From: Embleya scabrispora DSM 41855
GTDB lineage: Bacteria; Actinomycetota; Actinomycetes; Streptomycetales; Streptomycetaceae
Length of the DNA: 64,000 bases
Assembly (NCBI RefSeq): GCF_000372745.1
Contig: NZ_KB889574.1
Span: 62,001 to 126,000 of the forward strand
Reading direction: 5' to 3'
Each line of letters begins with the position of its first letter. The stretch's first letter is position 1. Below the pieces are notes generated by a model. That model made no database searches. It was not told where the DNA came from and saw only the letters and a list, made by a program, of their open reading frames with translations. The position numbers were made by a program, and so were the translations under genes. Shown one piece after another: positions 6,392-49,091 of this stretch.

Positions 6392-6810
6392 CACGCCTCA
6401 CCAGCCTCGCGCCGGACGATCCGGCACTTCATCGGCAGCTTGTGCACGGCGCGGGTAAGCGCCTCACGAGCCACCTTCTCGTTCGGGTACGACAGTTCGA
6501 ACATCACCCGACCGGGCTTGACGTTCGCGACCCACCACTCGGGCGAGCCCTTACCGGAACCCATGCGGGTTTCGGCAGGCTTCTTGGTCAGCGGACGGTC
6601 GGGGTAGATGTTGATCCACACCTTGCCACCACGGCGAATGTGCCGGGTGATGGCAATACGAGCGGACTCGATCTGACGGTTGGTCACGTACGCCTGGCCG
6701 AGGGCCTGGATGCCGTACTCGCCGAACGCCAGTTCCGTACCGCCCTTGGCGCGGCCACCACGCTTGGGGTGGTGCTGCTTGCGGTGCTTGACCCTGCGGG
6801 GGATCAGCAT
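6391..6810 (-). CDS. rplP: 50S ribosomal protein L16
   Basis: This 139-residue protein starts [19 protein letters not shown], the invariant L16 start, and includes [20 protein letters not shown] and [19 protein letters not shown]. It contacts A-site tRNA. The frame is open far upstream into rpsC, but this ATG is the family start. Confidence 0.98.
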
Positions 6811-6815
6811 CGGGG

Positions 6816-7691: not shown

Positions 7692-8035
7692 TAGCGGGTC
7701 CTCTCCTTCTCGGCGACAACCACGGTGATGTGGCTGGTGCGCTTGCGGATGCGGTACGCCCGGCCCTGTGCCCGCGGACGGAAACGCTTGAGGGTCGGAC
7801 CCTCGTCCACGTAGGCGGCGGACACGTACAGGATGTTCGTGTCCAGGTTGTGGTTGTGACCGGCGTTGGCAATGGCGCTGTCCAGCACCTTGCCGACCGG
7901 CTCACTCGCGGCCTGCGGAGCGAATCGCAGGACCGCCTGGGCCTCCGCGGCGTTCATGCCACGGATGAGGTCCACCACACGGCGGGCCTTCATGGGCGTG
8001 ACGCGGATGTACCGCGCCTGAGCCCTGGCTTCCAT
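7691..8035 (-). CDS. rplV: 50S ribosomal protein L22
   Basis: This 114-residue protein starts [20 protein letters not shown] and includes [20 protein letters not shown]. It lines the peptide exit tunnel. The ATG at 8035 is chosen because AAGGGGA lies about 6 nt upstream and the family begins there; an in-frame ATG at 8065 would add [10 protein letters not shown] and lacks a good ribosome-binding site. Confidence 0.95.
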
Positions 8036-8371: not shown

Positions 8372-9208
8372 CTAGCGCTTCTTGTTCGTCTTGCGGCGGC
8401 GGATGATGAGCTTGTCGCTGGCCTTCTTCGGCCGGCGAGTACGACCCTCGGGCTTACCCCAGGGGCTCACCGGGTGGCGACCACCAGAGGTCTTACCCTC
8501 ACCACCACCGTGCGGGTGGTCGATGGGGTTCATCGCCACACCGCGGACGGTCGGGCGCTTGCCCTTCCAGCGCATGCGACCGGCCTTGCCCCAGTTGATG
8601 TTCGACTGCTCGGCATTGCCGATCTCGCCGACCGTCGCCCGGCAGCGCACGTCCACCAGGCGAATTTCGCCCGAGGGCATGCGGAGGGTCGCGTGGGCGC
8701 CCTCCTTCGCCAGCAGCTGCACGCTGACACCCGCGGAACGGGCGATCTTCGCGCCGCCACCGGGCCGAAGCTCGATGGCGTGGATGACCGTACCGACCGG
8801 GATGTTCCGGAGCGGCATGTTGTTGCCCGGCTTGATGTCGGCGCCCGGACCGTTTTCGATCCGGTCGCCCTGCTTCAGCTTGTTCGGGCAAAGGATGTAG
8901 CGCTTCTCGCCGTCCGCGTAGTGCAGAAGAGCGATGCGCGCGGTGCGGTTCGGGTCGTACTCGATGTGAGCGACCTTCGCCGGAACGCCGTCCTTGTCGT
9001 TGCGCCGGAAGTCGATCAGTCGGTACGCGCGCTTGTGGCCGCCACCCTGGTGGCGAGCAGTCACACGGCCGTGGTTGTTACGACCACCCTTGCTGTGCAG
9101 AGGGCGGACCAGCGACTTCTCCGGCTCGGACCGCGTGATCTCGACGAAGTCGGCGACGCTGGCGCCACGACGGCCCGGCGTCGTCGGCTTGTACTTGCGG
9201 ATGCCCAT
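8372..9208 (-). CDS. rplB: 50S ribosomal protein L2
   Basis: This 278-residue protein starts [20 protein letters not shown] and contains the family signature [20 protein letters not shown] near residue 220, with the His essential for peptidyl-transferase centre structure. It ends in a very basic [20 protein letters not shown]. Length is standard. Confidence 0.98.
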
Positions 9209-9242
9209 GGCTTCTCTTAGTCCTCGTCCGTATCAGCGGCCG

Positions 9243-9584
9243 TCAGCCGACGGGTCCACCGAAGATGTCGATCCGCTCGCCCTCTGCAAGGGTGACGATC
9301 GCGCGCTTCGTGTCCTTGCGCTTGCCGAAACCGGTCTTGGTGCGCTTGCGCTTACCAACGCGGTTGATCGTGTTGACGCTCTCGACCTTGACCCCGAAGA
9401 CCGCGATGACGGCCTGCTTGATCTGGGTCTTGTTGGCGTCGGGGTGCACGATGAACGTGTACTTGTTCTCGTCGATGAGCCCGTAGCTCTTCTCCGAGAT
9501 CACCGGCTTCAGCAGCACGTCGCGCGGGTCGGTGTAGGTCTTGCTGGTGACCTTCGTCGTGCTCTCGACGGTGTCGGTGCTCAC
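9243..9584 (-). CDS. rplW: 50S ribosomal protein L23
   Basis: This 113-residue protein contains [20 protein letters not shown] and [20 protein letters not shown], the L23 core. It docks trigger factor and SRP at the tunnel exit. The start overlaps the rplD stop by four bases. It has a short Thr/Ser-rich N-terminal extension ([15 protein letters not shown]). Confidence 0.96.
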
Positions 9585-10258
9585 GCGTGGCTCCCTTCGA
9601 GCTCGTCGGAGCTCGCGACCGCCGAGGCGGCCTGCGCCGGTCCGGCGATGAAGCGCTCCAGAGCGGCCTTCGTGAAGACCACGTCGTCGGAGACGAGCAC
9701 GTCGTAGGTGTTCAGCTGCCCGACCTCGAGCAAGTGCACCTGCGGAAGGTTGCGGGCGCTCAGCCAGGCAGTGGTGTCGGACTTCTCGACGACCAGGAGC
9801 ACGTTCTTGCGCTCACTGATCTTGCCGAGCAGCGTCTTCGCCGCCTTGACCGACGGCTTGTCGCCCTCGATCAGCGCGGAAACGCAGTGGATGCGCTCGT
9901 GACGCGCCCGGTCGGAGAGGGCGCCGCGCAGGGCGGACGCCTTCATCTTCTTCGGGGTCCGCTGCTCGTAGTCACGCGGCACGGGACCGTGCACGACGCC
10001 ACCACCGGCGAACTGCGGCGCGCGGGTCGAACCCTGACGGGCGCGACCGGTGCCCTTCTGGCGGTACGGCTTGCGCCCACCACCGCGGACCTCGCCACGA
10101 GTCTTGGTCTTGTGCGTGCCCTGACGAGCCGCGGCGAGCTGGGCCACGACGACCTGGTGGATCGTCGGGATGCTCACCTGGACGTCGAACAGCTCCGCGG
10201 GGAGGTCGATCGTCCCGGACTTCTCGCCGGCGGGCGAAAGAACGTCAATGCTGGTCAT
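9581..10258 (-). CDS. rplD: 50S ribosomal protein L4
   Basis: This 225-residue protein starts [15 protein letters not shown] and includes [20 protein letters not shown], the tunnel-constriction loop of L4. In E. coli L4 autoregulates the S10 operon; no such site was proven here. ATG 10258 matches the family start, but the Shine-Dalgarno-like GAAGGG is rather far (12 nt); a GTG at 10267 overlapping the rplC stop is the alternative. Confidence 0.95.
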
Positions 10259-10263
10259 GAAAT

Positions 10264-10908
10264 TCACACACCCTTCGCAGCAGTGCGCACCAGAACCAGG
10301 CCGCCGTTCGGACCGGGGACCGCGCCCTTGATCAGGAGCAGGCCCTTCTCGGCGTCGACGGCGTGAACGGTCAGGTTCTGGGTGGAGACGCGCTCGTTAC
10401 CCATGCGGCCTGCCATGCGCACGCCCTTGAACACACGACCCGGGGTGGCGCAGCCACCGATCGAGCCGGGCGAGCGGTGCTTGCGCTGCGTACCGTGCGA
10501 GCTGCCGAGACCCTTGAAGCCGTGCCGCTTCATGACACCGGCCGTGCCCTTGCCCTTCGAGGTGCCCATGACGTCGACCTTCTGGCCGGCCTCGAACACA
10601 TCGGCGGTGATCTCGTCGGCCAGCTTGTACTCGCCGGCGTCGGAGGTGCGCAGCTCGACCAGGTGGCGGCGCGGGGTGACCCCGGCCTTGGCGAAGTGGC
10701 CGGCGAGCGGCTTGTTCACCTTGCGCGGGTCGATCGCGCCGAACGCGATCTGGACGGCGGAGTAGCCGTCGACCTCGGCGTTGCGGACCTGGGTCACGAC
10801 GCAGGGCCCGGCCTCGACCACAGTCACTGGAACGACGCGGTTGTTCTCGTCCCAGACCTGGGTCATGCCGAGCTTCTTGCCCAGAATGCCCTTCATCTGC
10901 TTCGTCAT
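10264..10908 (-). CDS. rplC: 50S ribosomal protein L3
   Basis: This 214-residue protein starts [20 protein letters not shown]. It includes [20 protein letters not shown] and [20 protein letters not shown], the loop that reaches the peptidyl-transferase centre. ATG 10908 is the conserved start although the frame is open upstream. It is the second gene of the S10 operon. Confidence 0.97.
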
Positions 10909-10921
10909 CGTCGGTGCGTCC

Positions 10922-11230
10922 TCAGAGCTTGATCTCGATGTCGACGCCGGCCGGCAGGTCGAGACGCATAAGCGAGTCGACCGTCTTCGGCGTGGGGTCG
11001 AGGATGTCGATGAGCCGCTTGTGAGTGCGCATCTCGAAGTGCTCGCGCGAGTCCTTGTACTTGTGCGGCGAGCGGATGACGCAGTACACGTTCTTCTCGG
11101 TCGGCAGCGGCACCGGTCCCGCAACCTGCGCACCAGTACGCGTCACCGTCTCGACGATCTTCTTCGCCGAACTGTCGATGACCTCGTGGTCGTAGGCCTT
11201 GAGCCTGATGCGGATCTTCTGTCCCGCCAT
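10922..11230 (-). CDS. rpsJ: 30S ribosomal protein S10
   Basis: This 102-residue protein, [20 protein letters not shown], contains [20 protein letters not shown] and the closing [13 protein letters not shown]10 is a 30S head protein and a NusB partner (NusE) in antitermination. It is the first gene of the S10 operon and has a long structured leader upstream (11231-11754). Confidence 0.98.
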
Positions 11231-11328
11231 GGCTGCTTCGAATTCCTTCTCTCGTACCGCTGCGGATCACCCCCGCTGACACGGGGAGAAGACTTGGGCT
11301 GAAAACCCGTTGGGGTTTCCCTTCCCCG

Positions 11329-11354
11329 CCGACCCCCGCGGTCGGGCGTGTCGC
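11329..11354 (-). promoter_or_regulatory. Leader element shared with rpsL (copy 1, rpsJ leader)
   Basis: This 26-nt stretch is identical to 16193-16218. On the transcribed strand it begins GCGACACGCC and then forms a stem CCGACC-GCGGG-GGTCGG. It ends 98 nt upstream of the rpsJ start codon. I infer a common control signal for the S10 and str operons. Confidence 0.6.
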
Positions 11355-11598
11355 TCTGTTGCTCACAAGCACCCCTTGGAAACCCTTACGGGCGGCCTGG
11401 GGGCCTGGGCAACGTACTCTCGGCATCACCTTCGCTGCGGCAAGCGAAAGGACGACACGAGGTCGCTAAGCGACGACGCCGGCTGCATGGGTGGCAGGAC
11501 AGAAGTCCACCGATTGTTCGGAGTCAACAAGGCCGGCGCCCGATTCCGTCTGTGCGACAGGCACGGCGCAGCCCGTTGTCTATCCGAGCAACTTGGCT

Positions 11599-35830: not shown

Positions 35831-35906
35831 TGGTAGCGGCGACCGGACTTGAACCGGTGACACAGCGATTATGAGCCGCTTGCTCTACCGTCTGAGCTAC
35901 GCCGCC
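35831..35906 (-). tRNA. tRNA-Met (anticodon CAT, elongator type)
   Basis: A 76-nt cloverleaf with encoded CCA; acceptor GGCGGCG/CGCCGCT with a first G-U pair, anticodon loop CTCATAA, T-arm GGTTCAAGTCC. The closed first pair points to an elongator rather than an initiator tRNA. Confidence 0.93.
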
Positions 35907-35916
35907 TCGACGAGGC

Positions 35917-35938
35917 CCCCGCCTGCTGCCAGGCGGGG
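35917..35938 (-). terminator. Hairpin between tRNA-Thr and tRNA-Met
   Basis: A perfect 9-bp stem CCCCGCCTG/CAGGCGGGG with a 4-nt loop in the spacer between the two tRNA genes; a likely processing or termination structure. Confidence 0.5.
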
Positions 35939-35951
35939 ATCCCATCGTCTG

Positions 35952-36024
35952 AGCCCCAATACGGAATCGAACCGTAGACCTTCTCCTTACCATGGAGACG
36001 CTCTACCGACTGAGCTATTGGGGC
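35952..36024 (-). tRNA. tRNA-Thr (anticodon GGT)
   Basis: A 73-nt cloverleaf: acceptor GCCCCAA/TTGGGGC, D-arm AGCTCAGTCGGTAGAGC, anticodon loop ATGGTAA, T-arm GGTTCGATTCC. CCA is not encoded. It is first in the tRNA-Thr/tRNA-Met/rpmG group. Confidence 0.94.
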
Positions 36025-36092: not shown

Positions 36093-37919
36093 CTACTCGG
36101 CGGACCAGACAGCCCTGGTCAGAGCCCCTTCCACGGTTTGCGCGTAGACGGCCGCGGCCAGCCACGCAGCGGACAAAAGGTCGTTGTCGCCCGCGCGAAG
36201 ACGCCCGAAAACATCCCGTTCGCGGCCCGCCGCGACGTGCGTGAGGCGCTCGACCAGGCCGGCTCCCGTGGCCAGGCCGACCCGGCGCAGCCGGGCGGTG
36301 TCGGCGGCGGTGGAACCGGCCAGCGCGAGCACCGGCCGACCGCCGCTGATCGCTCGCTCTACGTGACGGTGCATCAGGTACAGCGGGCCGGCCGGGAGTT
36401 CCTCGGCCGCGACGGTCGCGACGGGGATCGCGGCGGCGTCCGGGAGGTCGGCGCGGTGCAGGCGGTCCAGGCCCAGGTCGACGCGGCCCAGTCGGTCCTC
36501 GGCCAGCCGCAGTGTGGGGCCCTCGCCCGGCGGGATGCCGACCGCGAGCACCCGGATCGCCCGATCGGCGCCGGGTTCGAGGCGGCCGATCAGCCGCAAT
36601 CGCAGGCCCGGGCAGGTCGCGAGCAGACGCAGGTTGTCGCGGTAGGCGAAGGCCGGATCGGCGTGCGCGACGAGCAGGTGCACGTCCAGTCCGGCGCAGA
36701 CGGCGCGGACCCGGTCCCGGGCGCCGGGGGTCGGGCCGAGCACGGTGACGTCGAGGAAGAGCAGGTCGACGCCCGCGGGGCGGTCGTCCGTGGGCAGGTC
36801 GCGGTGGCCGACGACGCGGTCGACCTGGGTGGCCGGCGGGACGTCCCACAGGGCGCGGAGCGGCTCCTCGGTCCAGGCCGCCCCGCTCGCCCGGGCGGCG
36901 CGCACCCCCTGGCCGGCGCCGAGCCGGCCGCCCGCGGACGCGGTGGCGCCGGAGACGACCAGGCCGGCGCGGGTGAGCGCGGCCGGGTCGATGGAGGTGT
37001 CGCCGACCCGGATCGCGCGGGTCGCGGCGCCGACCGCCCGGTCGGCGCCACCGGGGGCGACGTCGCCGATGGTGCGCAGGGTGCCGGTCGGGTCGACGGT
37101 GGTGGTCACCGCGCCCGCGAAGCCCCGGGCGGTCAGCACGGGTTCGGTGAACAGCCCGTACAGCCGCAACGAGCCGGCCGGTGCGTAGGCCCGGCGGGAG
37201 GTGCCGCGCAGCCCGTCGAGGACCTGCGCCGACTCCCCCGTCGAGGTACGCAGGGCGTGTGCCACGTCGAGCAGTTCGCGCAGCGCGGCGACCAGTTCGG
37301 CGAGTCGGTACGCGGGGTCGCCGGACCGGGCGGCGCGCAGGCCGGTGGCCACCGCGACGGCGGCGGCGGACGCGCGGTGCAGCCCGGCCAGGCGCGCGGT
37401 GTGTGCGGCGCGCAGCAGGCCGGCCTGGAGGACGGCGCCGGCGGTGTCGACGCCGGCGTCCACGATGGCGGCGCCGGCGGTCCACAACGCGTCGGCGGCG
37501 GCGCGTTCGGCGGCGGTGGGTTCGGTGGCTCCGGCTTGTCCCGCGGTTGTGCCGGGGTCGGGGGTCTCGGTGGAAGTGTCCGGGGTGTCGGGGGCGTTCG
37601 AGGTATCCGGTGCGGGTTCGGGTGCGCCGTCGGCGACCGGGGCCGAGGCGGCGGCTGCGGCGCGGTGTACGCAGGCCGGTGCGAGCAGGCACGAGCAGCG
37701 CAGGTCTTCGACGCGGGTGACCGATCCGGTCGGGATGGACAGGGTCAGTTCGGCGTCCTCGCCGACGGTGATCCGTACGGTGTCGCCGTCGCGTGCGATC
37801 GGGCACGCGGCGAGTTTGGCGATCGCCGCGTCCAGGCGTTTGCGCAGGCGCGGGGTGAGCGCCTCGATGATGTCGGCGGTGACGTCCGGCGCGACGGGTG
37901 GCAGGCCCTGCGTGCTCAT
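36093..37919 (-). CDS. SWIM zinc-finger protein (YehQ-like)
   Basis: This 608-residue protein has a SWIM-type motif C75-x-C77...C83-x-H85 in EDLRCSCLLAPACVH, within an N-terminal domain that starts around residue 20. An Ala/Pro/Thr-rich linker follows, then a long alpha/beta region of unknown fold. SWIM fingers usually bind nucleic acid or protein. The ATG at 37919 overlaps the VWA gene stop by four bases. It is the last gene of the MoxR/VWA operon and corresponds to E. coli YehQ by motif and position (from memory). Function is unknown. Confidence 0.88.
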   Translation of the reverse strand: MSTQGLPPVAPDVTADIIEALTPRLRKRLDAAIAKLAACPIARDGDTVRITVGEDAELTLSIPTGSVTRVEDLRCSCLLAPACVHRAAAAASAPVADGAPEPAPDTSNAPDTPDTSTETPDPGTTAGQAGATEPTAAERAAADALWTAGAAIVDAGVDTAGAVLQAGLLRAAHTARLAGLHRASAAAVAVATGLRAARSGDPAYRLAELVAALRELLDVAHALRTSTGESAQVLDGLRGTSRRAYAPAGSLRLYGLFTEPVLTARGFAGAVTTTVDPTGTLRTIGDVAPGGADRAVGAATRAIRVGDTSIDPAALTRAGLVVSGATASAGGRLGAGQGVRAARASGAAWTEEPLRALWDVPPATQVDRVVGHRDLPTDDRPAGVDLLFLDVTVLGPTPGARDRVRAVCAGLDVHLLVAHADPAFAYRDNLRLLATCPGLRLRLIGRLEPGADRAIRVLAVGIPPGEGPTLRLAEDRLGRVDLGLDRLHRADLPDAAAIPVATVAAEELPAGPLYLMHRHVERAISGGRPVLALAGSTAADTARLRRVGLATGAGLVERLTHVAAGRERDVFGRLRAGDNDLLSAAWLAAAVYAQTVEGALTRAVWSAE

Positions 37920-40900
37920 CGGACCTTCTCTCCGACCCAGCGGGCCAGTTCGGTGGGGCTCAGGGCGGCGACCGGCATGCCGGCGGCGACGAGGCTGCCG
38001 GCGACGGCGGCGGAGTAGCGCGGGCGGCCCGCGTCGTCCAGGCTCGCGCAGCCCAGGACGTGGCAGCCGGAGGAGGCCAGCGTGCGTACCTCGGAGAGCA
38101 GGCCGCCCAGGGGGTAGCCCTCCTCGAAGTCGCTGATCACGGTGATCAGCGTGCGCGAGGGCACGGTGACCAGTTCGCGGGCGGCACGCAGCCCGGCGGC
38201 GATGTGCGTGCCGCCGCCGACCTTGACCTCCAGAAGCAGGCCGAGCGGGTCGTGCACGTGCTCGGTGAGGTCGATCACCTCGGTGGAGAAGGCCAGGAAG
38301 TGGGTGCTCAGCGAAGGGACTCCGGCCAGGATCGATGCGGTGAGCGCGGACCAGATGGTCGACGCCTCCATCGAGCCGGACACGTCCACGACCAGGATCA
38401 GTCGCCAATCGTTGCTGCGGCTGGACCGGGTACGGAAGATCGGCCGCTCCGGGACCACGACCACGGTGCCCTCCGCGGTCCGGCGGGCGGTGGTGAGGTT
38501 GGCGCGCAGGGTGCGCGGCAGGTCGAGCGCGCCGCCGGGGCGGCGGGTGGGGCGTGGGGTGGTGATGCCGGTGAGCGCGGGCCGCAGCCGGGTGGCGAGT
38601 TCGCGGCTGAGTTCGGCGACGATCCGGGCGATCAGCGGGCGCAGCAGCGCGAGTTTGGCCTCGGGGAGGCCGCCGGCGTGGGCCAGTACGGTCTTGAGCA
38701 GGTCCACCGAGGGACGGGCCGCGGCGGGGTCGAGGTGGGTGAGGACGTCGGTACGGCCGGCTGCCGCGGCGGCGGCCAGGACCTCCTCGCGGATGTCGGA
38801 GCCGAAGAGGGCGATCAGGTCCTCGGACCATTCCCGGACGCCGGGGTAAGGGGCCTCCCGGCCGCCGCCGTTGCCGTCGCCGAGGTCGCCGCGGGAGCCT
38901 TCGCCGCGGCCGGTGCCGTAGAGCTCGTCGAGCGCGGTGGCCATTTTGCGGGCGTTGCCCTGGAGGTGGTCGGAGCGGCGGCCGAGGATCAGCTTCCAGC
39001 GGTGGGTGGTTGGGAGGTCGTGAGTGGGGAGTGCGGCCGCGGTCGCGGTCGCGGTTTGCTCGGGTGGGATTTGTGCCCGCCCGACCACCCGTTCCGTGGG
39101 GTTCGGAGGCTGCGGGATTTCCGCGTCGGGCGAGGCGATGGGGCCGCACGGCCTGCCGAGGGGGGTGATGTCCGTGGCGGAGGTGGCTTCCGCGACGGGC
39201 TCGGTTCCCTGGGCGGGTTCGGCTTCCGGGTCGGGCGCGGTTTTGGTGCCGGCGGCGGTCGGGTCGGGCGGGGGCAGGAGGCCGCGGTGGGTGAGGGCTT
39301 CTCGGGCGGTCAGGTCGGCGGTGGTCCAGCGGGCCAGGTCGATCGGGTCGGCGTCGGTGTCCACCCGGTCGCCCAGGTGGTCGGCCACCGCGTCGAGGAC
39401 GCGGTCGCGGGCAGCGGGGCTGAGGGTGTCGAAGCCGCCGCGCAGGGCCGGCAGCCGGTCCAGGAACGGGCGGTCGGCGAGGGTGTCGACGCGGTTCAGC
39501 AGCGCCGCCAGGACCGGGCCGCCGGTCTGCAGGAGCGGGCCGGCCGCGGTGAGCAGTCCGGTGAGCCGGCGGGTCAGGTCGGCCCGGGCGGGCGGGGTGG
39601 TCGCGGTGTCGATCCACGAGCCGATCCGGTCGCCGAGGCCGGCCGCGTCCTCGTGGCCGAGCAGGACCCGGACCGCACCGGCTGCGGCGGACATCAGCGG
39701 CGAGCCGTCGGCGGCCAGCCGGGCCAATCCCGTGTTCAGCCGGATCCCGCCGAACATGTCGGCGCGCTCCGCCAGATCGGCCAGGGCGCGGGCGTCGGCC
39801 GGGTCGTCGGATCCGGTCAGGCCGTCGAGGTGGCGAACGGCCGCGGTGAGCAGGGTCTGGGTGACGTCCTCGCCGGCGCCGGGAGACGTGGCCGACTTCG
39901 GGTCGAGGGCCGCCGTGGGGGCGGCCGGGTCGGTGGCGGCCGGGTCGGTGGCGGAACGTGCGTCCGACTTCGGGTCGAGGGCCGGTGTGGTGCCGGCCGA
40001 GGCGGGGGCGGCCGCCTGCGGGGTGGTCGGGCCGGGTGTGGTCCCGGGGGCGATGCCCAGGTGGCCCGCGTGGATGCGGTCGGTCAGGGTCAGTGCGGTG
40101 AGCAGGTTCGGGAGGGTGGCGATGGTCGGCAAGGTGGTGCCGGTCTCGGCCATCCTGGTGGCGGTGAGTTCGGTCAGGCCGCACGCCGCGGCGCGTTCCA
40201 GGCCGGTGAGGATCTGTTCCGCGGTGGGGCCGCCCTCGTCGAGTTCGGCTCGGTGCTGCGCGCGCAGGGTGCCCTCGGCGGCCTGTTCCGGGGTCACCCC
40301 CCGGGTACCGGCCGCGTCCGACAGGGCCGCCACGGACGGGGTCCAGCGCACCCGCCAGCGAGTGGTGACCGCGTCCGCGCCGCCCGCGCCGACCACCGCG
40401 ACTGGTTCGGCGTACGGGATCCGACAGGTGGTCAGTTGTTGCAGGAGCAGTTCGCGGCGCCGGTCCAGGTCGCTGCGCAGCGGGTCCAGGCGCAGATCGC
40501 GCTCGGCCGGGTCGGCGGGGCCGGGCAGGCCGAGTTCGGCGATCCGGCGCTCCACCTCGGGGCCCAGGCCGCTGCGTGGTGCGGCCGGTGCGGGGCGGCC
40601 CGCTCGCTTGCCGACCAGGACACGTTCGAGCGCGCGGGCCACCGATCGGCCCCGGCCCAGCGGCTCGCCGTGGGTGAGCACGGTCTGTACCGCTTCGAGC
40701 AGTTCGCCGCGGCCCGCGGCGGGCAGTCCGCGCAGGTTGGCCAGGTCGCCCGCGAGCCGGACGATCTCGCGGGCGTCGGCCGGTCCGCTGGGATGGCCCT
40801 GGCCGCGCAGGTCGGTGCAGATCCGCACGGCCGCGGCGATCAGCGCCTCGTGCAGCGCGGCCGGGTCGCCGCCGGATTCCAGGACGCACTGCTGCCACTC

Positions 40901-41734
40901 GGGGTCGCGGATGCCGGCCGGATAGCCGGAGCGCGCGTCCAGGAGCGGGTAGGTGTACGGGATCAGCGACATCGTGACGTCGGCGATCTCGGCGGCCGGT
41001 GCGGTGGTGTCCTGGTCGAGCAGGGCCGGCGCGTGGAATGCGCCGAGCACGACCGCGGCGCGCGCACCGTCGGCGGTCGCCTCGTGCAGCGTGGCGCGCA
41101 TCCACGCCTCGCGGCGCAGGTCGACCGGGTCCACGGTGCCCGCGTCGCGGCGCAGGGCCCAGCCGACGGTGAGCGCGGCCCGGCGGATCGCCTCGGCGGC
41201 GGAGCCGGGTGCGGTGGCCTCGACCAGCCGGTCCCACAGGTCGTCGCCGGGCCGGCCGGTGAGCCGGTCGCGCAACGCGGCGTGCAGCCCGCCCACGCCG
41301 GCCACCGCGTCCTTCCCGTCGCCGTCGGTGTCCCCCTCGGCCGCGCGGTCGCTGCGATCCCATCCGGGGTGGCCCAGCGGCAGGTCGCACGGGATCGCCG
41401 GGACGCCGTTTCGCGCGGCCCAGCGCAGTGCGGCCAACTCCGGCGAGAAGTCGGCGAACGGGTAGAAGCCGAGCCCGCCCGGACCGGTGCCGGCCAGGGC
41501 GATCGGCGCGCGGGTGTCCTCGTGTGCGAGCCATTGCAGCCAGGGCGCGGCCTCGTGCGGCAGTTCGACGAGGAGCACGTCGGGGCGGGCCGCGTCCAGC
41601 AGGGTCGGAACCGCGGCGGCGAGCGATGGGGCGTGGTGGCGCACGCCGATCAGGTACGGCTGCCGGGACGCGGCCAGGCGCGCGGCGGCCGGACGGGCCT
41701 CGTCGATGGGCCCGTCCGTACGTATGGTCGACAC
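37916..41734 (-). CDS. DUF5682-VWA fusion protein (YehM+YehP-like)
   Basis: This 1272-residue protein is one uninterrupted frame. The N-terminal DUF5682-type domain includes YLIGVRHHAPSLAAAVPTLL (about residues 27-46) and VVLGAFHAPALL (about 226-237), resembling the ChaN/TIKI-like hydrolase superfamily. The middle is a long helical Ala/Thr/Asp-rich region. The C-terminus is a von Willebrand A domain with the MIDAS motif VVDVSGSMEAS near residue 1115, plus GGGTHIAAGL and VISDFEEG. In E. coli the two halves are separate YehM and YehP. It starts at GTG 41734, 4 nt after the MoxR stop. A MoxR-VWA pair usually acts as a chaperone or metal-insertion machine. Confidence 0.9.
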   Translation of the reverse strand: MSTIRTDGPIDEARPAAARLAASRQPYLIGVRHHAPSLAAAVPTLLDAARPDVLLVELPHEAAPWLQWLAHEDTRAPIALAGTGPGGLGFYPFADFSPELAALRWAARNGVPAIPCDLPLGHPGWDRSDRAAEGDTDGDGKDAVAGVGGLHAALRDRLTGRPGDDLWDRLVEATAPGSAAEAIRRAALTVGWALRRDAGTVDPVDLRREAWMRATLHEATADGARAAVVLGAFHAPALLDQDTTAPAAEIADVTMSLIPYTYPLLDARSGYPAGIRDPEWQQCVLESGGDPAALHEALIAAAVRICTDLRGQGHPSGPADAREIVRLAGDLANLRGLPAAGRGELLEAVQTVLTHGEPLGRGRSVARALERVLVGKRAGRPAPAAPRSGLGPEVERRIAELGLPGPADPAERDLRLDPLRSDLDRRRELLLQQLTTCRIPYAEPVAVVGAGGADAVTTRWRVRWTPSVAALSDAAGTRGVTPEQAAEGTLRAQHRAELDEGGPTAEQILTGLERAAACGLTELTATRMAETGTTLPTIATLPNLLTALTLTDRIHAGHLGIAPGTTPGPTTPQAAAPASAGTTPALDPKSDARSATDPAATDPAAPTAALDPKSATSPGAGEDVTQTLLTAAVRHLDGLTGSDDPADARALADLAERADMFGGIRLNTGLARLAADGSPLMSAAAGAVRVLLGHEDAAGLGDRIGSWIDTATTPPARADLTRRLTGLLTAAGPLLQTGGPVLAALLNRVDTLADRPFLDRLPALRGGFDTLSPAARDRVLDAVADHLGDRVDTDADPIDLARWTTADLTAREALTHRGLLPPPDPTAAGTKTAPDPEAEPAQGTEPVAEATSATDITPLGRPCGPIASPDAEIPQPPNPTERVVGRAQIPPEQTATATAAALPTHDLPTTHRWKLILGRRSDHLQGNARKMATALDELYGTGRGEGSRGDLGDGNGGGREAPYPGVREWSEDLIALFGSDIREEVLAAAAAAGRTDVLTHLDPAAARPSVDLLKTVLAHAGGLPEAKLALLRPLIARIVAELSRELATRLRPALTGITTPRPTRRPGGALDLPRTLRANLTTARRTAEGTVVVVPERPIFRTRSSRSNDWRLILVVDVSGSMEASTIWSALTASILAGVPSLSTHFLAFSTEVIDLTEHVHDPLGLLLEVKVGGGTHIAAGLRAARELVTVPSRTLITVISDFEEGYPLGGLLSEVRTLASSGCHVLGCASLDDAGRPRYSAAVAGSLVAAGMPVAALSPTELARWVGEKVR

Positions 41735-41738
41735 CTCG

Positions 41739-42899
41739 TCAGCCCTCCAGGACTCCGCGCAGGTCCCACAGGGTGCGCCAGGTGGCCGAGCCGTGTTCCG
41801 CCCGGCGGCGTACCGCCGCGTCCCAGTAGGACAGGAGCCGGGCGGCGTCGGCCGGGTCGTCCTTCTTCGCGACGCCGAGCAGGTGTCCCGGCAGCAGGCT
41901 CAGCACGTCCCGGTCGCCCGGGAAGTAGGCCGCGGCCAGCGCGAGCGAGGAGGCCACCGAGACCGCCTCGGCGGTGCTCAGCACGGTGGAGGGGCGCTCG
42001 ATCTCCCAGCCCTCGGCCGAGCGGCCGGTGCGCAGGTCGCGGAACGCGGTGACCAGCACCTCCAGGACCGTGTCGTCGACGGCATAGGCGGTCCCGGTGC
42101 GTTCCACCGCGGCCCTGGCCTGACGGCGGACCAGCGCGATCTCCGCGTCGTGGTCGCCGATCGGGCCGACGGTCTCGAAGTTGAACCGGCGCTTGAGTGC
42201 GGCGGACATCTCCGAGACGCCCCGGTCGCGCAGGTTCGCGGTGGCGATCAGGGTGAAGCCGGGCACGGCGTGCACCTGTGCGTCGGTGCCGCCCGCCAGT
42301 TCCGGAACGGCGATCCGGCGCTCGGACAGCAGCGAGACCAGCGCGTCCTGCACCTCGGGCAGGCAGCGGGTGACCTCTTCGATCCGGGCCACCGCGCCGG
42401 TGGTCATCGCGGTGAGCACCGGCGAGGGCACCAAGGCGCCCCGGCTGGGGCCCTGGGCGAGCAGCAGTGCGTAGTTCCAGCCGTACTTGAGCTGGTCCTC
42501 GGTGGTGCCGGCGGTGCCCTGCACGGTGAGCCCGCTGGTGCCGCACACGGCGGCGGCCAGCAGTTCGGACAACATCGACTTGGCGGTGCCGGGTTCGCCG
42601 ACCAGGAGCAGGCCGCGTTCGCCGGCGAGGGTGACCACGCAGCGTTCGACCAGGGCACGTTCGCCGACGAACTTGGCGCCGATGGTCAGCGTGCGCGGCA
42701 GGCCGTCGACCGGTTCGGGCAGCTTGAGTTCGTCACCGCTGCCCATCACGAAGGTGACCACCGCGCGCGGGGTCAGCCGCCAGGCCGGCGGCCGCGGGCC
42801 GCGGTCGTAGGCGGCCAGGAAGGCGAGTTCCCGCGCGTACAGGTCCTCGGGGGGTTGTACCTGGCGCGCGCTCGCGGCGGGTTCGGTTGCGGTTGCCAT
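41739..42899 (-). CDS. MoxR-type AAA+ ATPase (YehL-like)
   Basis: This 386-residue protein has Walker A GEPGTAKSMLSELL at about residues 101-114, Walker B-like VARIEEVTRCL near 170-180 and sensor 1 TLIATANLRDRGVSEMS near 216-232, with a basic arginine-finger stretch KRRFNFE. MoxR ATPases pair with VWA proteins to remodel or activate client proteins. Its ATG shares a base with the stop of the giant upstream gene (TGATG), so it is translationally coupled, and it is followed directly by the DUF5682-VWA gene. Confidence 0.95.
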   Translation of the reverse strand: MATATEPAASARQVQPPEDLYARELAFLAAYDRGPRPPAWRLTPRAVVTFVMGSGDELKLPEPVDGLPRTLTIGAKFVGERALVERCVVTLAGERGLLLVGEPGTAKSMLSELLAAAVCGTSGLTVQGTAGTTEDQLKYGWNYALLLAQGPSRGALVPSPVLTAMTTGAVARIEEVTRCLPEVQDALVSLLSERRIAVPELAGGTDAQVHAVPGFTLIATANLRDRGVSEMSAALKRRFNFETVGPIGDHDAEIALVRRQARAAVERTGTAYAVDDTVLEVLVTAFRDLRTGRSAEGWEIERPSTVLSTAEAVSVASSLALAAAYFPGDRDVLSLLPGHLLGVAKKDDPADAARLLSYWDAAVRRRAEHGSATWRTLWDLRGVLEG

Positions 42900-45800
42900 C
42901 AGCGGCGGCCCTTCCGGGGGGTGCGGGTGACGAGTTGTTCGAAGCCTGGCGCATCGCCGTCCAGGACGCGTTGCCAGGCTCGGCGGAAGAGTTCGGGTAC
43001 CGGGCAGTCGGGCACGATCGCGGAGTGCTCGGGCTGCGCGTACAGCCCTTCCTTCCAGGTCTCCAGGGGCAGCGCCGGGTTCTTCAGCGCGCTCCAGCCG
43101 CCGGGCAGGAACAGCGTGCGACCGGCGCGCGAGCGCTTGGCCTCGACGACCAAGTCGGTGCCCGCGAGTTCGGTGCGGGCCTTCTTCAGCCGTGCGGGCT
43201 TCCAGCCGGTCCAGCGGGCGACCTGACGGTCCGTGGGGTCCGGCAGGGCGAGCAACTGGAGGTAGAGAACCGCCGCGTCCTCGCCGATGCCGTGCGCCTT
43301 GGCCACCTCGGCGACCAGGTCGGGCACCGCGTACGCCGGGTCCTGCTGGATGCCGGGCGGGCCGTCGGCGCGCAGGAGTTCCTCGAAGGCCGGGTCCAGG
43401 ATCCGGCGGAAGGACTTCAGGTGGGTCGAGTTCGCGGCGCCGCGGAGCGCGATCAGCCGGTCGAACCACGGGTCGTCGGCGCCGGTGAAGCCGGCGGGCC
43501 GGACCTCGGCGAACTCGCTCTCGCCGTACCAGGGCCGGAGCCAGAAGCGGTCCTCGATCCGCAGCACGCCGTCCGGGTCCGCGCCGCCGGTGGCGGGCAG
43601 TCCGACCGCCTCGCGCAGTCGGGTGGCGGTGGAGCCGCTCTCCGAGTACTCGATGTCCAGGTCGAACACCAGGCCCGGATCGGCCAGCCGGGTGCGCAGC
43701 AGGCCGAGCACGTGCGGCAGATGTGCGCGCAGCGGGTCGCCGTAGGGCAGTCGGTAGGCGAGCCACGCGAGCGCGGACACGGTGACGTGCAGGACGTTGC
43801 CGCTGGGCACCGCCTCGGCGTCGGAGGCGCGCAGCCGGCCGTCCTTCTTGTCCATCGTGTGGGTGGAGGTGCCGGTGATCCACTTGCGCGATTCCGGCGT
43901 GAGCACGTTCTCGAACGCGGCGGAGGAGATGCCCCGGGCGTCCGCCGCGACCTCCTCGGGCAACCGCAGCACCCGGCCGAACGCGGCGTCCCACGCCCGG
44001 CAGCCGGCCGCGAGGTCGTGACCCGTCGTCCACAGGCCGGGGACATCCTCGGCTCGCTCGGGAATCAGCGCGCCCAGGACGCCGGCCCGCGCGGTGCCGT
44101 CGAGCCGGTCCAACTGCTCGCGGGCGTTGCTCGCCTCCGCGGCCTTGAGCCCGAGTACGGCCCGCTGGTCCTTGTCCAAATCGCCCGCGATCAGGCCGGC
44201 CAGCAGCACGCTCGCCTCGGCGCGGCCCAGGCCGGTGCCCTCGACCAGGGTCGGCACCGCCTCCGGCCGCCACGGGACGGGTCCGTTCGCGCGGACCCCG
44301 TGCACCACGGCGGCGACCCGCTCGGGGGACATCGGTTCGACGTAGCGGTGTTCCTCGTGCGTGGTGAAGCCGTCGATCGCCTCGAACCGTCCCGAGGGGT
44401 CGTGGTCGAGCGCGATCCAGTGGTCCCTGTCGCCGTAGTGGTACTTGCTGTCCAGGATGAACACCGTACGGTCGCCGCGCCGCATGGTCCGGCCCTGGCG
44501 CTTGCGGTCCTTGCCCTTCTTGGCGCTCGGCTCGCACAGGACGACCTTGCGCAGTGTCCCGGCGGGCCTGCCCAGCGGCCCGGCGGCGAGCGCCTCCAGC
44601 GCCACCAGCAGTGACGCGCGGTGCTCCTCGGAGGTGAACGGGGACAGTGCGCGGGCGAGCATCGCGGCCCGGTGGTCGAGCAGTTCGTGCCAGGAGAGGT
44701 GTGATGCGGCGAGCCGATCGGGCTCGGTGGTCCACTCGGCCGGGCCGTCGGTACGGGCCAGGGCCGCGGCCACCGCGGTGATGTGGTTCACCGTGTTCCA
44801 CGTGGCCGTGCCCGTACCGTAGTAGCTGTATCGGCTGGTGCCCGCGATCCCGGCGAGCGCCCCGTTCAGTTCGGCGTCCTGGCCGTGGGCGGGGCCGGTG
44901 GGCACCACGCGGGCCTTCTGCTCCTTGACGGTGACCGTGCCGAAGTCGCGCAGGCGCCGCACCATTCGGGCGGTGTCCCGGGCCAGCCCGGCAACGCAGC
45001 GCACCAGGCCGGCGTGGCCCAGTTCGGGCAGCAGCCGGCGCACCGGGTCGATCCGCAGCGTGTCCGGGCGGACCGCCTTGTCGGAGGACTTCTTGGCGAT
45101 CGTGTACTCGGCCATCGCGCGCTCGTGGTCCGCGTGCACCTCGGTGACCAGTTCGGCGGCCCGCTCGTGGGTGATCGCGCGCAGCGCCAACGAGCCGGCC
45201 TCGTCGCGCGGTCGCAGTGCGTGCCAGAACGCGAGCGGCGGGACGATCCGGCTGCCCAGGGCCAGATCGACGCCGCCCTTGTCGCCCACGCAGTGGCCCA
45301 GCAGCACGTCGCCGGCCCACAGCGACACGTTGCCGTTCTCCAACACGGCGGTGGGAGCCGCGCCGCCGGGCAAACGCAGTGCGCCGATCGGCACCTCCAG
45401 CGGCATCCGGTCCCAGTGTCGCCGGGTGCGCACGGGAGCACTCACGGTGTGCCCGGCCACCGAACCCGCGGTGATCGTGTCGCCGTCGATCCGGACCCAG
45501 CGGCCCAGCAGCTTGCCGTCGGTGCCGAACGGGCTCTGCTCCAGGCCGGGCAGCAGCGGCAGCAGCTCGCACCGGTCGGGTACGAGCGCGCCGCCGTCGG
45601 CGACTGCGGCGGCGAACGGAGCGGGCAGCGAGGCCCGGCCGTGAATCCCGGTGGCCGGGTCGTACTCGGTCCACTTGCGGTCGCTGCGGTCGGAGTCGAG
45701 CGACCAGTGCGTGGTGCCGTCGGTGAGCACGCCCCGGCGCGGCGGCAGCTTGGTGTCGCCGGCGTACAGCGGACGACCGCCGGTGGTGCGGCCGCCGTCG

Positions 45801-47785
45801 GGCAGCGCGAGGGAGAACGTCGAATTGACATCCGAGTTGCTGTTGGGGCTTTCGCCGGTCACCGGGAAGATCTCGTTCGGGCGCCCGGACCAGTACCCCT
45901 CCCAGTCGTATTCCTTGTTGTACCAGGCGACCAGGAGTTGTCCGTCCACGTAACGGAAGGCGGGGCGCTGCCACGAGACGCGTTCCTTGGGCAGGCGCAG
46001 CTCGTGTTCGAGCAGGATGCCTTCGGGACCGACCACGACGGCGCGCTTGTCGGTGGAGAGCACCAGCGCGGGCCATGCCTCGTCGAGCCGGATCTCGCCC
46101 TTGCGGCCGAAGCGTTCGACCGCCTCGTCCAGCGCGGACCAGCCCAGTTCGTCGTAGACGCCGGCGCGCAGCGTGTCGGCCAGCAGCGCGACCGCGTCGA
46201 ACGCGCGGACCCGGGTCACCACGTCCGGGGTGACCTCCAGGACCACCTCGCGGAACTCGTTGAGCACCTTGAACTCGCGCTCGGCGTCGGGCAGCCCGGC
46301 CGCGGCGGTGACCTTGGTACCCTGCTCGGTCAGCCAGTTCGCGAGTACTCCGCGCAGCACGGGATGCGCGGCGGTGGCTGCGTGGCGGGTGCTCTTGAGG
46401 TTGCCGATCGCCCGGTACAGCAGCGGGAGATGGCGCTCGTCGGCGGCGATCGCGGCCAGCTCGCGACGGCCCGCGGCCTGGTCGCTCCACCACTCGTTGA
46501 GATCGAACGAGCCCTTGGGGTCCGGGTCGGTCAGCGGTATGCCCTCGGTCAGCGCCACATCGAGCAGGTCGACGTCCACGCCGGCGTGCCACCCGTTGCC
46601 GCTGAACAGGCTGACCGGTACGGCCTCGGCCCGCAGCGCGGCGGCCATCCGCACGACCTGGTTCGCGGTGCGCTCGCTGCGCGGGCTGTACCGCCAGCCG
46701 CGTCGGCAGTGCGCGGCCCAGCGGGTGAGCCACTGCGCGCGGGCGCCGGCCGGGAGGTCGCCGTCGACCAGCAGGTCCAGCGCGCCGGCCTCGGCGAGCA
46801 GGTCGAGCCAGAAGTCGTCGAGTTCGGCGTCCGGGGTCGAGCCGCCGGGGGTGGGCAGGATCTCCAGCAGGCGGGCTCGGGTGTCGGGCTCGGCGGCGGC
46901 CAGGGTCGCCAGCGGCTTGCGGTTGACCTTCCAAAAGGACAGCGGCGCGCGGCCGATCGCCGGCGTGGCCAGCAGTTCGCGCAGCAGCGCGAACTCCTCG
47001 GCGGTGTCGTCGCCGCCGGCCGCCCGGATCAGCGCGCGGGCGTCCTCGGCCAGTCCGGCGTACGGCGGCATGCCCGCGGTGCAGCGCTCGACCGCGAGTT
47101 GGCGGAACTGCACCCACGCCTGCGCGGGACCCAGTCGGGCGGCCAGCGCCTTGGCGTGCTCCTTGAGCGCCTTGGCGGTCAACGCGCCGGCGAAGGCGAA
47201 CTCCAGGAAGACCGCGCGCAGCCGCTCCTCCTCGATCGGCAGGTTGTGCACCCGCTCGGCCTCGCGGGCCTTGCCGAAGAAGGCGGACGCGTAGGTCTTG
47301 TTGTCGTGCTTGAGGAAGATCCGCGCGGCCTGCTCGTGGAAGGTGGGCAGGAAGTGCGGTACGGCCCGGCCCAGGCGCACGGCCAGTTCGCCGAAGCCGT
47401 CCTTGGCCGCGCCCGGCTTGGTCTTGGCCTGGCGGTCCAGCCGCTCGATGTCGCGGACCAGGGCCAGCGCGTGGTGTCCGTTGGCCGGGTCGTTGACCAG
47501 GGCCCAGGCCGGGAAGCCGAGTGCCTCGCGGCGGACCTGGCCGACCTCGGGGGCCTCCGGTTCGCGGGCCAGGCCCAGGAAGCCGAGCGCCAGGTCCTCG
47601 GCCTCGCCCAGGGTCGCCGGGACCAGCCGCACGATCGGGCGGTCCTCGAACACGGGGTGCAGGTAGGTGCGCACGGTGAGCGTGTCGATGTCGTCGCCGG
47701 TCAGGGTGCCGACGGGGAGGATGCCGCCCGCGTCCAGCAGGCCGCGCGAGGTGTCGGGGGTGGTGCTCATGCCGGTGCTGTTCAT
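42899..47785 (-). CDS. Giant MoxR-associated protein (1628 aa) with C-terminal winged-helix-like region
   Basis: I do not recognise a named family over the full length. The N-terminal 250 residues are helical (for example FHEQAARIFLKHDNKTYASA then FGKAREAERVHNL). The middle contains long beta-rich stretches with repeated Trp/Gly, such as WYNKEYDWEGYWSGRPNEIF. The C-terminal about 100 residues, TDRQVARWTGWKPARLKKAR, look like a winged helix-turn-helix, so nucleic-acid contact is possible. The ATG at 47785 overlaps the DUF4132 stop (ATGA) behind GGAGG. A longer upstream frame exists but overlaps that gene. It is placed between DUF4132 and MoxR genes, an addition relative to E. coli. Confidence 0.88.
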   Translation of the reverse strand: MNSTGMSTTPDTSRGLLDAGGILPVGTLTGDDIDTLTVRTYLHPVFEDRPIVRLVPATLGEAEDLALGFLGLAREPEAPEVGQVRREALGFPAWALVNDPANGHHALALVRDIERLDRQAKTKPGAAKDGFGELAVRLGRAVPHFLPTFHEQAARIFLKHDNKTYASAFFGKAREAERVHNLPIEEERLRAVFLEFAFAGALTAKALKEHAKALAARLGPAQAWVQFRQLAVERCTAGMPPYAGLAEDARALIRAAGGDDTAEEFALLRELLATPAIGRAPLSFWKVNRKPLATLAAAEPDTRARLLEILPTPGGSTPDAELDDFWLDLLAEAGALDLLVDGDLPAGARAQWLTRWAAHCRRGWRYSPRSERTANQVVRMAAALRAEAVPVSLFSGNGWHAGVDVDLLDVALTEGIPLTDPDPKGSFDLNEWWSDQAAGRRELAAIAADERHLPLLYRAIGNLKSTRHAATAAHPVLRGVLANWLTEQGTKVTAAAGLPDAEREFKVLNEFREVVLEVTPDVVTRVRAFDAVALLADTLRAGVYDELGWSALDEAVERFGRKGEIRLDEAWPALVLSTDKRAVVVGPEGILLEHELRLPKERVSWQRPAFRYVDGQLLVAWYNKEYDWEGYWSGRPNEIFPVTGESPNSNSDVNSTFSLALPDGGRTTGGRPLYAGDTKLPPRRGVLTDGTTHWSLDSDRSDRKWTEYDPATGIHGRASLPAPFAAAVADGGALVPDRCELLPLLPGLEQSPFGTDGKLLGRWVRIDGDTITAGSVAGHTVSAPVRTRRHWDRMPLEVPIGALRLPGGAAPTAVLENGNVSLWAGDVLLGHCVGDKGGVDLALGSRIVPPLAFWHALRPRDEAGSLALRAITHERAAELVTEVHADHERAMAEYTIAKKSSDKAVRPDTLRIDPVRRLLPELGHAGLVRCVAGLARDTARMVRRLRDFGTVTVKEQKARVVPTGPAHGQDAELNGALAGIAGTSRYSYYGTGTATWNTVNHITAVAAALARTDGPAEWTTEPDRLAASHLSWHELLDHRAAMLARALSPFTSEEHRASLLVALEALAAGPLGRPAGTLRKVVLCEPSAKKGKDRKRQGRTMRRGDRTVFILDSKYHYGDRDHWIALDHDPSGRFEAIDGFTTHEEHRYVEPMSPERVAAVVHGVRANGPVPWRPEAVPTLVEGTGLGRAEASVLLAGLIAGDLDKDQRAVLGLKAAEASNAREQLDRLDGTARAGVLGALIPERAEDVPGLWTTGHDLAAGCRAWDAAFGRVLRLPEEVAADARGISSAAFENVLTPESRKWITGTSTHTMDKKDGRLRASDAEAVPSGNVLHVTVSALAWLAYRLPYGDPLRAHLPHVLGLLRTRLADPGLVFDLDIEYSESGSTATRLREAVGLPATGGADPDGVLRIEDRFWLRPWYGESEFAEVRPAGFTGADDPWFDRLIALRGAANSTHLKSFRRILDPAFEELLRADGPPGIQQDPAYAVPDLVAEVAKAHGIGEDAAVLYLQLLALPDPTDRQVARWTGWKPARLKKARTELAGTDLVVEAKRSRAGRTLFLPGGWSALKNPALPLETWKEGLYAQPEHSAIVPDCPVPELFRRAWQRVLDGDAPGFEQLVTRTPRKGRR

Positions 47786-48633
47786 GCCGCGGCCTCCGTG
47801 GTCTCGATCGTGCGGCCCGCGTACAGCGCGGCGCCCATGCGCATGCCTTCCGACCAGGCCACCGGCGGGACCCGGTCCAGGGTCAGCGCGCTGCCGCCCT
47901 CGGTCCAGGTGACCGTGCCGGTCTCGGTCGACTCGTAGCCGTCGTAGTCGCCCAGCCACATCCGGGCCTCGACCGCGCGGCCTCCGTCCAGCACCGCGCA
48001 CACGGCCTGGCCGCCGCGCACCTGGTAACCCAGCTGGGTGGCCCGGCCGATCAGGAAGCGCAGCTGGTCGTAGCGCCCGCCGGCGAACTCCTCGACGCCG
48101 CTGCGGGTGCCGTCCAGGTCCGCGGGTCGGCGCCACACCTCGCGGTAGAGCTGCTGCACGCGCTGCTCGACCCCCAGTTCGACGGCGAACTCGCGCAGGT
48201 CCTCCAGGTCCGCCAGCAGCACCGGGTGCGGGATCCGGATGGTCTGTGCGTCGAGGTAGACGGTGTCGCCGTCGGGGTCGACGATGCCGACGCCGCGCTC
48301 GGAGTCCGCGCCGCGCAGGAATCCGGCCACGTCGGCACCGTCCGCAGTGACCACCAGGTCGCGCAGGACCCGCTGCCAGGAGGGATCCGGCCACACTCGG
48401 GAGAGCAGCGCGACCGGGACCGGGAGCGAGCCGATCATCCAGCGCTCGACCGCGTCCAGGCACGAGCGGTCGTGCCGTTCCAGCCACTCGACGAGCTGTC
48501 GCAGGCCCACCACTGCCGGGTCCTCGCCGAGCTTTCCGGGCACCGACTTGAGTTGCCGCCCCTTGGCATTGCGGCACACCACCTTGCCGTCCTGCAGGGC
48601 GACCTCATAGTCGCCCGCCGGAATCCATCCCAC
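47782..48633 (-). CDS. DUF4132-domain protein (YehI/MolR-like)
   Basis: This 283-residue protein starts MGWIPAGDYEVALQDGKVVC and continues with NAKGRQLKSVPGKLGEDPAV. The DUF4132-like core follows: IRIPHPVLLADLEDLREFAV then VQQLYREVWRRPADL, and later TQLGYQVRGGQ. E. coli YehI (MolR) carries the same domain in a much larger protein. The GTG at 48633 follows GGAGGG by 7 nt; an in-frame TTG at 48681 is less likely. It is the first gene of the operon, so the promoter should lie in 48634-49091. Function is unknown. Confidence 0.85.
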   Translation of the reverse strand: MGWIPAGDYEVALQDGKVVCRNAKGRQLKSVPGKLGEDPAVVGLRQLVEWLERHDRSCLDAVERWMIGSLPVPVALLSRVWPDPSWQRVLRDLVVTADGADVAGFLRGADSERGVGIVDPDGDTVYLDAQTIRIPHPVLLADLEDLREFAVELGVEQRVQQLYREVWRRPADLDGTRSGVEEFAGGRYDQLRFLIGRATQLGYQVRGGQAVCAVLDGGRAVEARMWLGDYDGYESTETGTVTWTEGGSALTLDRVPPVAWSEGMRMGAALYAGRTIETTEAAA

Positions 48634-49091
48634 GATCGTTCCCTCCACTGCTGTCCGCGAATGTCGGTGACACCCCGTCAAATGCCAAGCGGCACAAGGC
48701 GCTCGGCGCCGGTGACCAGGTTGGCGGGAACGTTAGCCGCCGAATCCGACAGCGCCGTCACCCGGCAGGATGAAACCCCGAGGGAAACGGCGGGCGATGG
48801 CCGAAAATCGCGCCCGACAGGCGAACTCTCGGCGGCAGTTGCACCAACGTTCGGCCACCGCGCCGGTGGCGGGACGGCGGCGGAGGCGCCGGGCGCGACC
48901 GCGCCCGCGGACCGCACCCGGGCCGCCCGCGAGGTTTCCCCCGGCGGCTGCGGGCCGCCGCCCATCCGGGGTAATTCCACCGGTTCAACCCATCGTTCGG
49001 CCGTGTCGCCGTATCCGACGGCACCTTGACGCGTTGTGCAGGGCCCACCCGCCGCGGGTGGGCCTGTACGAACCGAAAGGACCGACACAAG
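48634..49091. other. Divergent intergenic region between DUF4132 operon and chaplin gene
   Basis: 458 nt without a gene. It must hold the promoter of the MoxR/VWA operon on minus and of the chaplin gene on plus. A TAACGT (-10-like) occurs on minus near 48730, but I could not find a convincing partner. A perfect 10-bp hairpin lies at 49042-49064 just before the chaplin start. Confidence 0.5.
49042..49064 (+). promoter_or_regulatory. Hairpin in the chaplin mRNA leader
   Basis: A perfect 10-bp stem GGCCCACCCG/CGGGTGGGCC with a 3-nt loop, ending 27 nt before the chaplin ATG and close to its ribosome-binding site. It could control translation or stability of the mRNA. Confidence 0.45.

Follow-up and report, generated by a model that had tools for sequence, protein, structure and literature searches.

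The analysed window, a stretch of 64,000 nt from the 11.4-Mb genome of Embleya scabrispora DSM 41855 (NZ_KB889574.1, positions 62,001 to 126,000), contains an operon of five genes, which encode a short DUF4132 protein, a giant protein, a MoxR-clade ATPase, a DUF5682 protein fused to a VWA domain and a SWIM-motif protein (Table 1; the genes are labelled g1 to g5 in the order of transcription from the minus strand). The initial annotation of this DNA described the five genes as lying on one strand with overlapping or 4-nt-spaced junctions, and the open reading frame coordinates bore this out: all five are co-directional, g1 and g2 overlap by 4 nt, g2 and g3 by 1 nt and g4 and g5 by 4 nt, and a gap of 4 nt separates g3 from g4.

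Table 1. Genes, domains and the promoter motif of the operon (window coordinates).
Feature	Coordinates	Strand	Description
g1	47782..48633	-	283 aa, GTG start; short protein with DUF4132 domain (PF13569, 1.1e-26)
g2	42899..47785	-	1628-aa giant; helical repeat-like N-terminal part (by eye), predicted beta-propeller, mixed C-terminal part
g2, predicted beta-propeller	45206..46165	-	about residues 541-860
g3	41739..42899	-	386 aa, MoxR-clade AAA+ ATPase, YehL-like; Walker A GEPGTAKS
g4	37916..41734	-	1272 aa, DUF5682 fused to VWA domain
g4, putative TIKI/TraB-like hydrolase core of DUF5682	40955..41659	-	residues 26-260; GVRHH, LLVELP, RREAWM, GAFHAPA
g4, VWA domain, CoxE-like	37934..38599	-	residues 1046-1267; VWA_CoxE, PF05762, 8.1e-62
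g5	36093..37919	-	608 aa, SWIM-motif protein (CSCLLAPACVH)
RecA-NDp/PafBC-type promoter motif, degenerate	48730..48752	-	CTGTCGG-N10-TAACGT, 119 nt upstream of g1 start

According to the Pfam search, g3 matched AAA_5 (1.1e-37), with its Walker A and sensor motifs present, and g4 matched both DUF5682 (9.2e-200) and VWA_CoxE, with residues of the metal-ion-dependent adhesion site (MIDAS) type (DVSGS, GGGTHI and ISDFE) in the VWA domain. The SWIM match of g5 was weak (E 0.035; 14.1 bits, under the cut-off of 19.6); the motif, CxC-x5-CxH, covers residues 75-85, and its Cys and His columns were nearly invariant in 17 homologues. The giant protein matched no family in Pfam or PADLOC and none among the PDB sequences, and its one weak NCBIfam match was far under the cut-off. 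Nothing convincing turned up when the PDB sequences were searched with profiles of the g1, g2, g4 and g5 families. In the AlphaFold model of residues 430-1628 of the giant (mean predicted local distance difference test score, pLDDT, 82.9), a predicted beta-propeller was visible, with five groups of about four strands in residues 566-833.

Relation to the E. coli yeh locus and conservation of the operon

The initial annotation proposed a match in parts and order to E. coli yehI-yehL-yehM-yehP-yehQ, and we compared the operon with seven yeh proteins of E. coli K-12. The order in NC_000913 is yehF (WGR), yehH (a pseudogene), yehI (DUF4132), yehK, yehL, yehM, yehP and yehQ, and by Pfam YehL is AAA_5, YehM is DUF5682, YehP is VWA_CoxE and YehQ is SWIM; the MoxR, DUF5682, VWA and SWIM genes follow each other as in the operon, with a DUF4132 gene upstream. 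In BLAST searches g3 was 45% identical to YehL over 383 aa (2e-96) and 22% identical to RavA over 155 aa, which places it closer to YehL than to RavA, the only two E. coli MoxR proteins compared. The g4 protein corresponded to a fusion of YehM (28% identity) and YehP (37% identity), which are separate in E. coli. By these alignments the MoxR (YehL), DUF5682 (YehM) and VWA (YehP) proteins are homologous to the core of the operon, so the proposed match was right for the core. Outside it the match was partial: g1, g2 and g5 had no significant BLAST match among the seven proteins, g1 shares with YehI only the DUF4132 domain (seen in Pfam and, with a probability of 75%, in an alignment to positions 902-1098 of the YehI profile), which in E. 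coli is part of a 1210-aa protein, and g5 has little in common with YehQ beyond the SWIM finger, as neither BLAST nor a profile comparison matched the two significantly. The giant had no counterpart among the seven proteins, the only ones it was compared with; the yeh locus has no giant beta-propeller protein, and the giant is an addition relative to it. A homology of the giant to YehI or to DUF5691 was rejected, as hhalign found no match.

YehL is one of the seven named MoxR subfamilies (PMC3893208). In the open-licence literature we found no functional study of the yehL locus (judged by title for matches to yeh names) and no papers on DUF5682 or on DUF4132 together with MoxR.

Four layouts around a constant MoxR-DUF5682-VWA core were observed in actinobacteria. 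The first has a YehI-like DUF4132 protein and a YehQ-like SWIM protein, the second a SWIM protein and DUF5691, the third consists of VWA-MoxR-DUF5682 and an unassigned protein, and the fourth, g1-giant-MoxR-DUF5682/VWA-SWIM, is that of the present operon. In 20 of 21 DUF5682 loci MoxR and VWA stood side by side, and the remaining locus (L221) is cut by the contig end; a further piece (L247), which begins just before MoxR, holds MoxR and DUF5682 without a VWA match. The window's genome has two more MoxR-DUF5682-VWA loci of other layouts (L017 and L018), and in L017 a Uma2-type gene stands between DUF5691 and MoxR.

With the profile of the giant we fetched 80 loci, the best-scoring of 449 confirmed relatives in GTDB species genomes, so the sample leans to near kin; they come from Streptomyces, Kitasatospora, Embleya, Yinghuangia, Peterkaempfera and Actinacidiphila. 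Contig ends truncated 18 of these loci; of the 62 that were long enough, 61 contained all five genes in order, and the order is therefore not due to chance. The single exception (L136) carries the complete operon at another place in its genome. A giant match was found in 26 of 61 relatives, and 19 of the 22 loci read out from relatives hold all five genes in order, one being contig-cut and two having g1 and g2 only. Loci with only g1 and g2 were dropped as counterexamples for two of three genomes, which carry a complete operon elsewhere (L245, L076). The third genome (G014) has only a YehI-type locus (L246), in which the MoxR and VWA matches are split over frames (6676-7733 and 10432-11539), by decay or by sequencing errors.

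MoxR was the most strongly conserved component (71-98% identity in the best segments), and the giant (35-78%) and the SWIM proteins (36-83%) were the least conserved. Across the phylum, DUF5682 was found in 24 of 396 genomes; in one genus (g9, presumably Streptomyces) it was found in 117 of 121, and 60 of these 121 had a giant match, partial relatives counted. A complete operon is also carried by an 898-kb linear plasmid of S. atratus, whose record labels g2 'DNA-binding protein' and g5 'hypothetical protein'. One otherwise complete operon (L076) includes a second, partial giant gene in tandem (8550-11390). Separate reading frames of about 660-760 aa, akin to the C-terminal region of the giant (g2 residues ~930-1627), were seen at L069, L070, L074 and L075, in some genomes in more than one copy, with no MoxR, DUF5682 or VWA profile match within the 18-19 kb read. 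A query with the MoxR protein alone found no close relatives in viral contigs. A DUF5682-VWA-like stretch in an unannotated faecal record of 'Bacteriophage sp.' marked UNVERIFIED (MT835988.1, L249) was set aside as possibly a bacterial contig.

Promoter motif and a proposed link to DNA damage

In the 250 nt upstream of g1 the prevailing words were GTTGTCAGTG and, at a fixed distance behind it, words of the AGAGTT/AGTTCC type, a pair which we take to be the RecA-NDp promoter; its consensus, TTGTCRGTG-N8-TANNNT, was reportedly given by Gamulin in 2004. Before g1, the loose form TGTC-N12-TANNNT was found in 99 of 102 distinct upstreams (0.09 expected), the relaxed form TGTCRG-N10-TANNNT in 81 (0.04 expected) and the strict motif in 47 (0.01 expected); elsewhere in the same loci the strict pattern had 2 matches in 4.45 million bases, counted on both strands. 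The upstreams are related, yet they contained 68 distinct instances of the relaxed motif with 55 distinct spacers, and among 66 upstreams mutually less than 60% identical (last 150 nt, ungapped) the relaxed form was present in 56 and the strict one in 29. Regulation by LexA was rejected, GAAC-N4-GTTC being present in none of 81 upstreams.

Genome-wide searches gave 21, 26 and 37 strict sites in three g9 genomes and 3 in the window's genome, with 0-1 matches per genome for the backwards pattern. Two of the 26 sites of one presumed Streptomyces (G248) are by position at MoxR-DUF5682 operons (785425 and 4951406). We read out 20 of the others, leaving four, picked the first genes by an open reading frame rule and scanned 14 of the 20: seven were recA, ruvC, uvrA, uvrB, recD2, pcrA and ogt, and the other seven were two more helicases, ribosomal protein S6, a sigma factor and three genes that matched no family. 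Three genes without a family match (L280, L283 and L294), as well as L295, stand directly behind strict motifs in this genome and are candidate new damage-response genes.

The window itself has no strict motif, only the relaxed form, which is kept with differing spacers in four loci of the same genus (L078, L049, L079 and L051). Its genome has 71 relaxed sites against 14 for the backwards control, and relaxed sites lie, by position, upstream of all three MoxR-DUF5682 loci known there (48730-48752 in the window, 15494 in L018 and 17196 in L017). Among 20 sites chosen from the 50 that were read out, the relaxed motif stood directly before recA, uvrB and an uvrA paralogue; the other 30 were without any control repair gene. 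In the other layouts, represented by 21 actinobacterial loci, a strict site lies upstream by position in six (L231-L233 and L235-L237) and is lacking in 15.

The motif of the operon has the spacing seen at recA, uvrA, uvrB and other members of the actinobacterial RecA-NDp/PafBC regulon, and this pattern suggests that the operon is induced along with genes for DNA repair. PafBC acts on RecA-NDp promoters (PMC6789036, PMC8223512), and such promoters are carried by recA and SCO6735 of S. coelicolor (PMC5087735). A report that S. venezuelae has no conserved motif of the M. smegmatis type (PMC9380542) weighs against this assignment. Neither MoxR nor SWIM is mentioned in the accessible portions of the regulon papers PMC8223512 and PMC9380542. 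A second damage link is provided by Deinococcus, where the operon drA0165-drA0166, in which DRA0166 contains DUF4132, and the WGR gene dr2173 go up when DdrO is depleted (PMC8533742). Of the two roles suggested in the initial annotation, damage response and defence, the former gained strong new support from the promoter.

DUF5682 fold and the possible function of the operon

The residues H33, E57, R208 and H234 of DUF5682 are conserved from Embleya to E. coli YehM. In 80 sequences, R208 and H234 were found in all, E57 in 75 and H33 in 73; the seven sequences that lack H33 appear to be gene models that start too late or are misaligned (they were not checked one by one). TIKI/TraB proteins are described by the motif GX2H. 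In the fold comparison, VIA ranks 4-10 and 12 were structures of the TIKI superfamily and the fold matches were moderate; structures missing from the fold lists were not taken as excluded. One structure, 6a8j, would from its residue numbers be RRSP. In its predicted fold and residue pattern, DUF5682 looks like a hydrolase of the TIKI/TraB type, with likeness to a superfamily that includes TIKI, TraB, Ere, ChaN, RRSP and HopBA1 (members named in PMC6254334). Differently from these, it is fused to VWA and coupled to an AAA+ ATPase, and one Glu of the 2His/2Glu set of the superfamily and RRSP is absent. Alignment of DUF5682 to the Ere family by hhalign gave no signal, alignment to E. coli YbaP covered only the last motif, and TraB_PrgY_gumN was found in none of 41 genomes of relatives.

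We consider the chances about even that the operon encodes a DNA-damage-induced, YehL-type MoxR-VWA remodelling machine that gates a TIKI-like hydrolase, where both induction and catalysis are what we infer. DNA damage would activate PafBC, and the RecA-NDp-type promoter, seen as a motif, would then drive the operon together with recA, uvrA, uvrB, ruvC and pcrA. The MoxR ATPase, presumably a ring as in its family, would couple ATP hydrolysis to the VWA domain, which may bind a client peptide through its intact MIDAS site, a capture that follows the general scheme set out in PMC7159879. MoxR-VWA would next position or unlock the fused DUF5682, a TIKI/TraB-like hydrolase by fold and residues and probably a peptidase, on the client. 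The giant, its DUF4132 partner and the SWIM-motif protein could form the scaffold or adaptor that chooses the target, which may be proteins bound to damaged nucleic acid; the giant and g1 would then be a swappable targeting module and MoxR-DUF5682-VWA the constant core.

A bolder form of this scheme, which we regard as unlikely, is AAA+-driven proteolysis induced by DNA damage: MoxR-VWA would pull on proteins, such as those in DNA-protein crosslinks, that are stuck to damaged DNA or block it, the SWIM protein with the giant and DUF4132 would recognise the site, the TIKI-type enzyme would cut, and E. coli yehLMPQ would be the enterobacterial form. If true, bacteria would have in such a machine a logical counterpart of the eukaryotic crosslink-repair proteases. 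The promoter and fold evidence turn 'function unknown' into a testable claim and give a lead for the operon and its E. coli cousins. With DUF5682 in nearly all g9 genomes and in E. coli, a function in DNA repair would be of relevance to model organisms.

An alternative is an assembly chaperone without proteolysis, in which MoxR-VWA matures a protein complex in the manner of RavA-ViaA, the client being made under DNA damage; the TIKI-like domain of DUF5682 would then be structural or inactive. Remodelling or complex assembly is the mode of action of the MoxR-VWA pairs that PMC7159879 lists, the order of the five genes is fixed, and one TIKI-superfamily member, PMT, is without catalytic residues (PMC6254334); the conservation of H33, E57, R208 and H234 as far as YehM, however, would be unusual for a dead fold. 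The operon resembles E. coli RavA-ViaA in having a MoxR-VWA pair and differs in the closer match of g3 to YehL and in that no DUF5682 gene is found beside RavA-ViaA. We consider this explanation possible, and clearly less probable than a gated hydrolase.

In addition, the operon could be an anti-phage or conflict system of the MoxR-vWA kind, induced when phage damages DNA, in which DUF5682 would be the effector and the giant the sensor. MoxR-vWA ternary systems, which combine MoxR and VWA with further partners, are proposed conflict systems, and the third component of the beta-propeller subsystem has tetratricopeptide repeat (TPR) and beta-propeller regions (Kaur et al. 2020, PMC7159879), which the giant resembles in outline; the patchy occurrence of the giant in g9 and the plasmid copy of the operon also fit such a role. 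Differently from those systems, the VWA of the operon is fused to DUF5682, and no part of theirs was matched above the Pfam cut-off, bpMoxR scoring 21.4 bits against 27. In Pfam the five proteins had no match to a VMAP, iSTAND or FtsH third component or to a VWA-fused beta-propeller, but residues 541-1045 of g4 were outside the modelling, and the giant does carry a propeller. YehL, SWIM, TIKI and DUF4132 do not occur in the text of PMC7159879 as far as it was available. A PADLOC 2.0.0 search of the five proteins at E 0.5 or better gave no convincing match, only a weak one of the AAA+ protein g3 to REase_II (E 0.009). We also examined 135 of 154 selected flanking proteins from 60 loci (PADLOC threshold E 1e-10), in which eight PADLOC families had 1-3 members each, several of them generic; LysR, MFS and sugar transporters and TetR were the commonest Pfam families, and the neighbours were mostly metabolic, transport and regulatory. 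As this survey had no matched control set, it only fails to support defence. The lack of effector swapping inside the operon, the content of which is alike in 61 of 62 loci, also speaks against it. Defence, the other role suggested in the initial annotation, gained no support, and we find it quite improbable.

The VWA_CoxE match and the old MolR names raise, finally, the idea of a CoxE/MolR-like machinery for cofactor or metal insertion, and a molybdopterin role has been suggested for DUF4132 (PMC8533742). In that paper, though, moeA, moeB and similar molybdate genes were unchanged, none of nine scanned flanking proteins was a cofactor gene product, and the promoter class is that of DNA repair; this explanation is very improbable.

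A T4-like tail-tube family (Phage_T4_gp19) was matched by three of the 135 flanking proteins, which may point to a contractile injection cluster. We considered an island linked to the adjacent tRNA genes and dropped it: tRNA-Thr and tRNA-Met adjoin the operon in Embleya- and Yinghuangia-like loci and are absent beside the other scanned loci. In the window, tRNA-Met and tRNA-Thr (35831-36024) lie directly downstream of the operon; beyond them come two genes for MaoC-type dehydratases and one of the MurB type.

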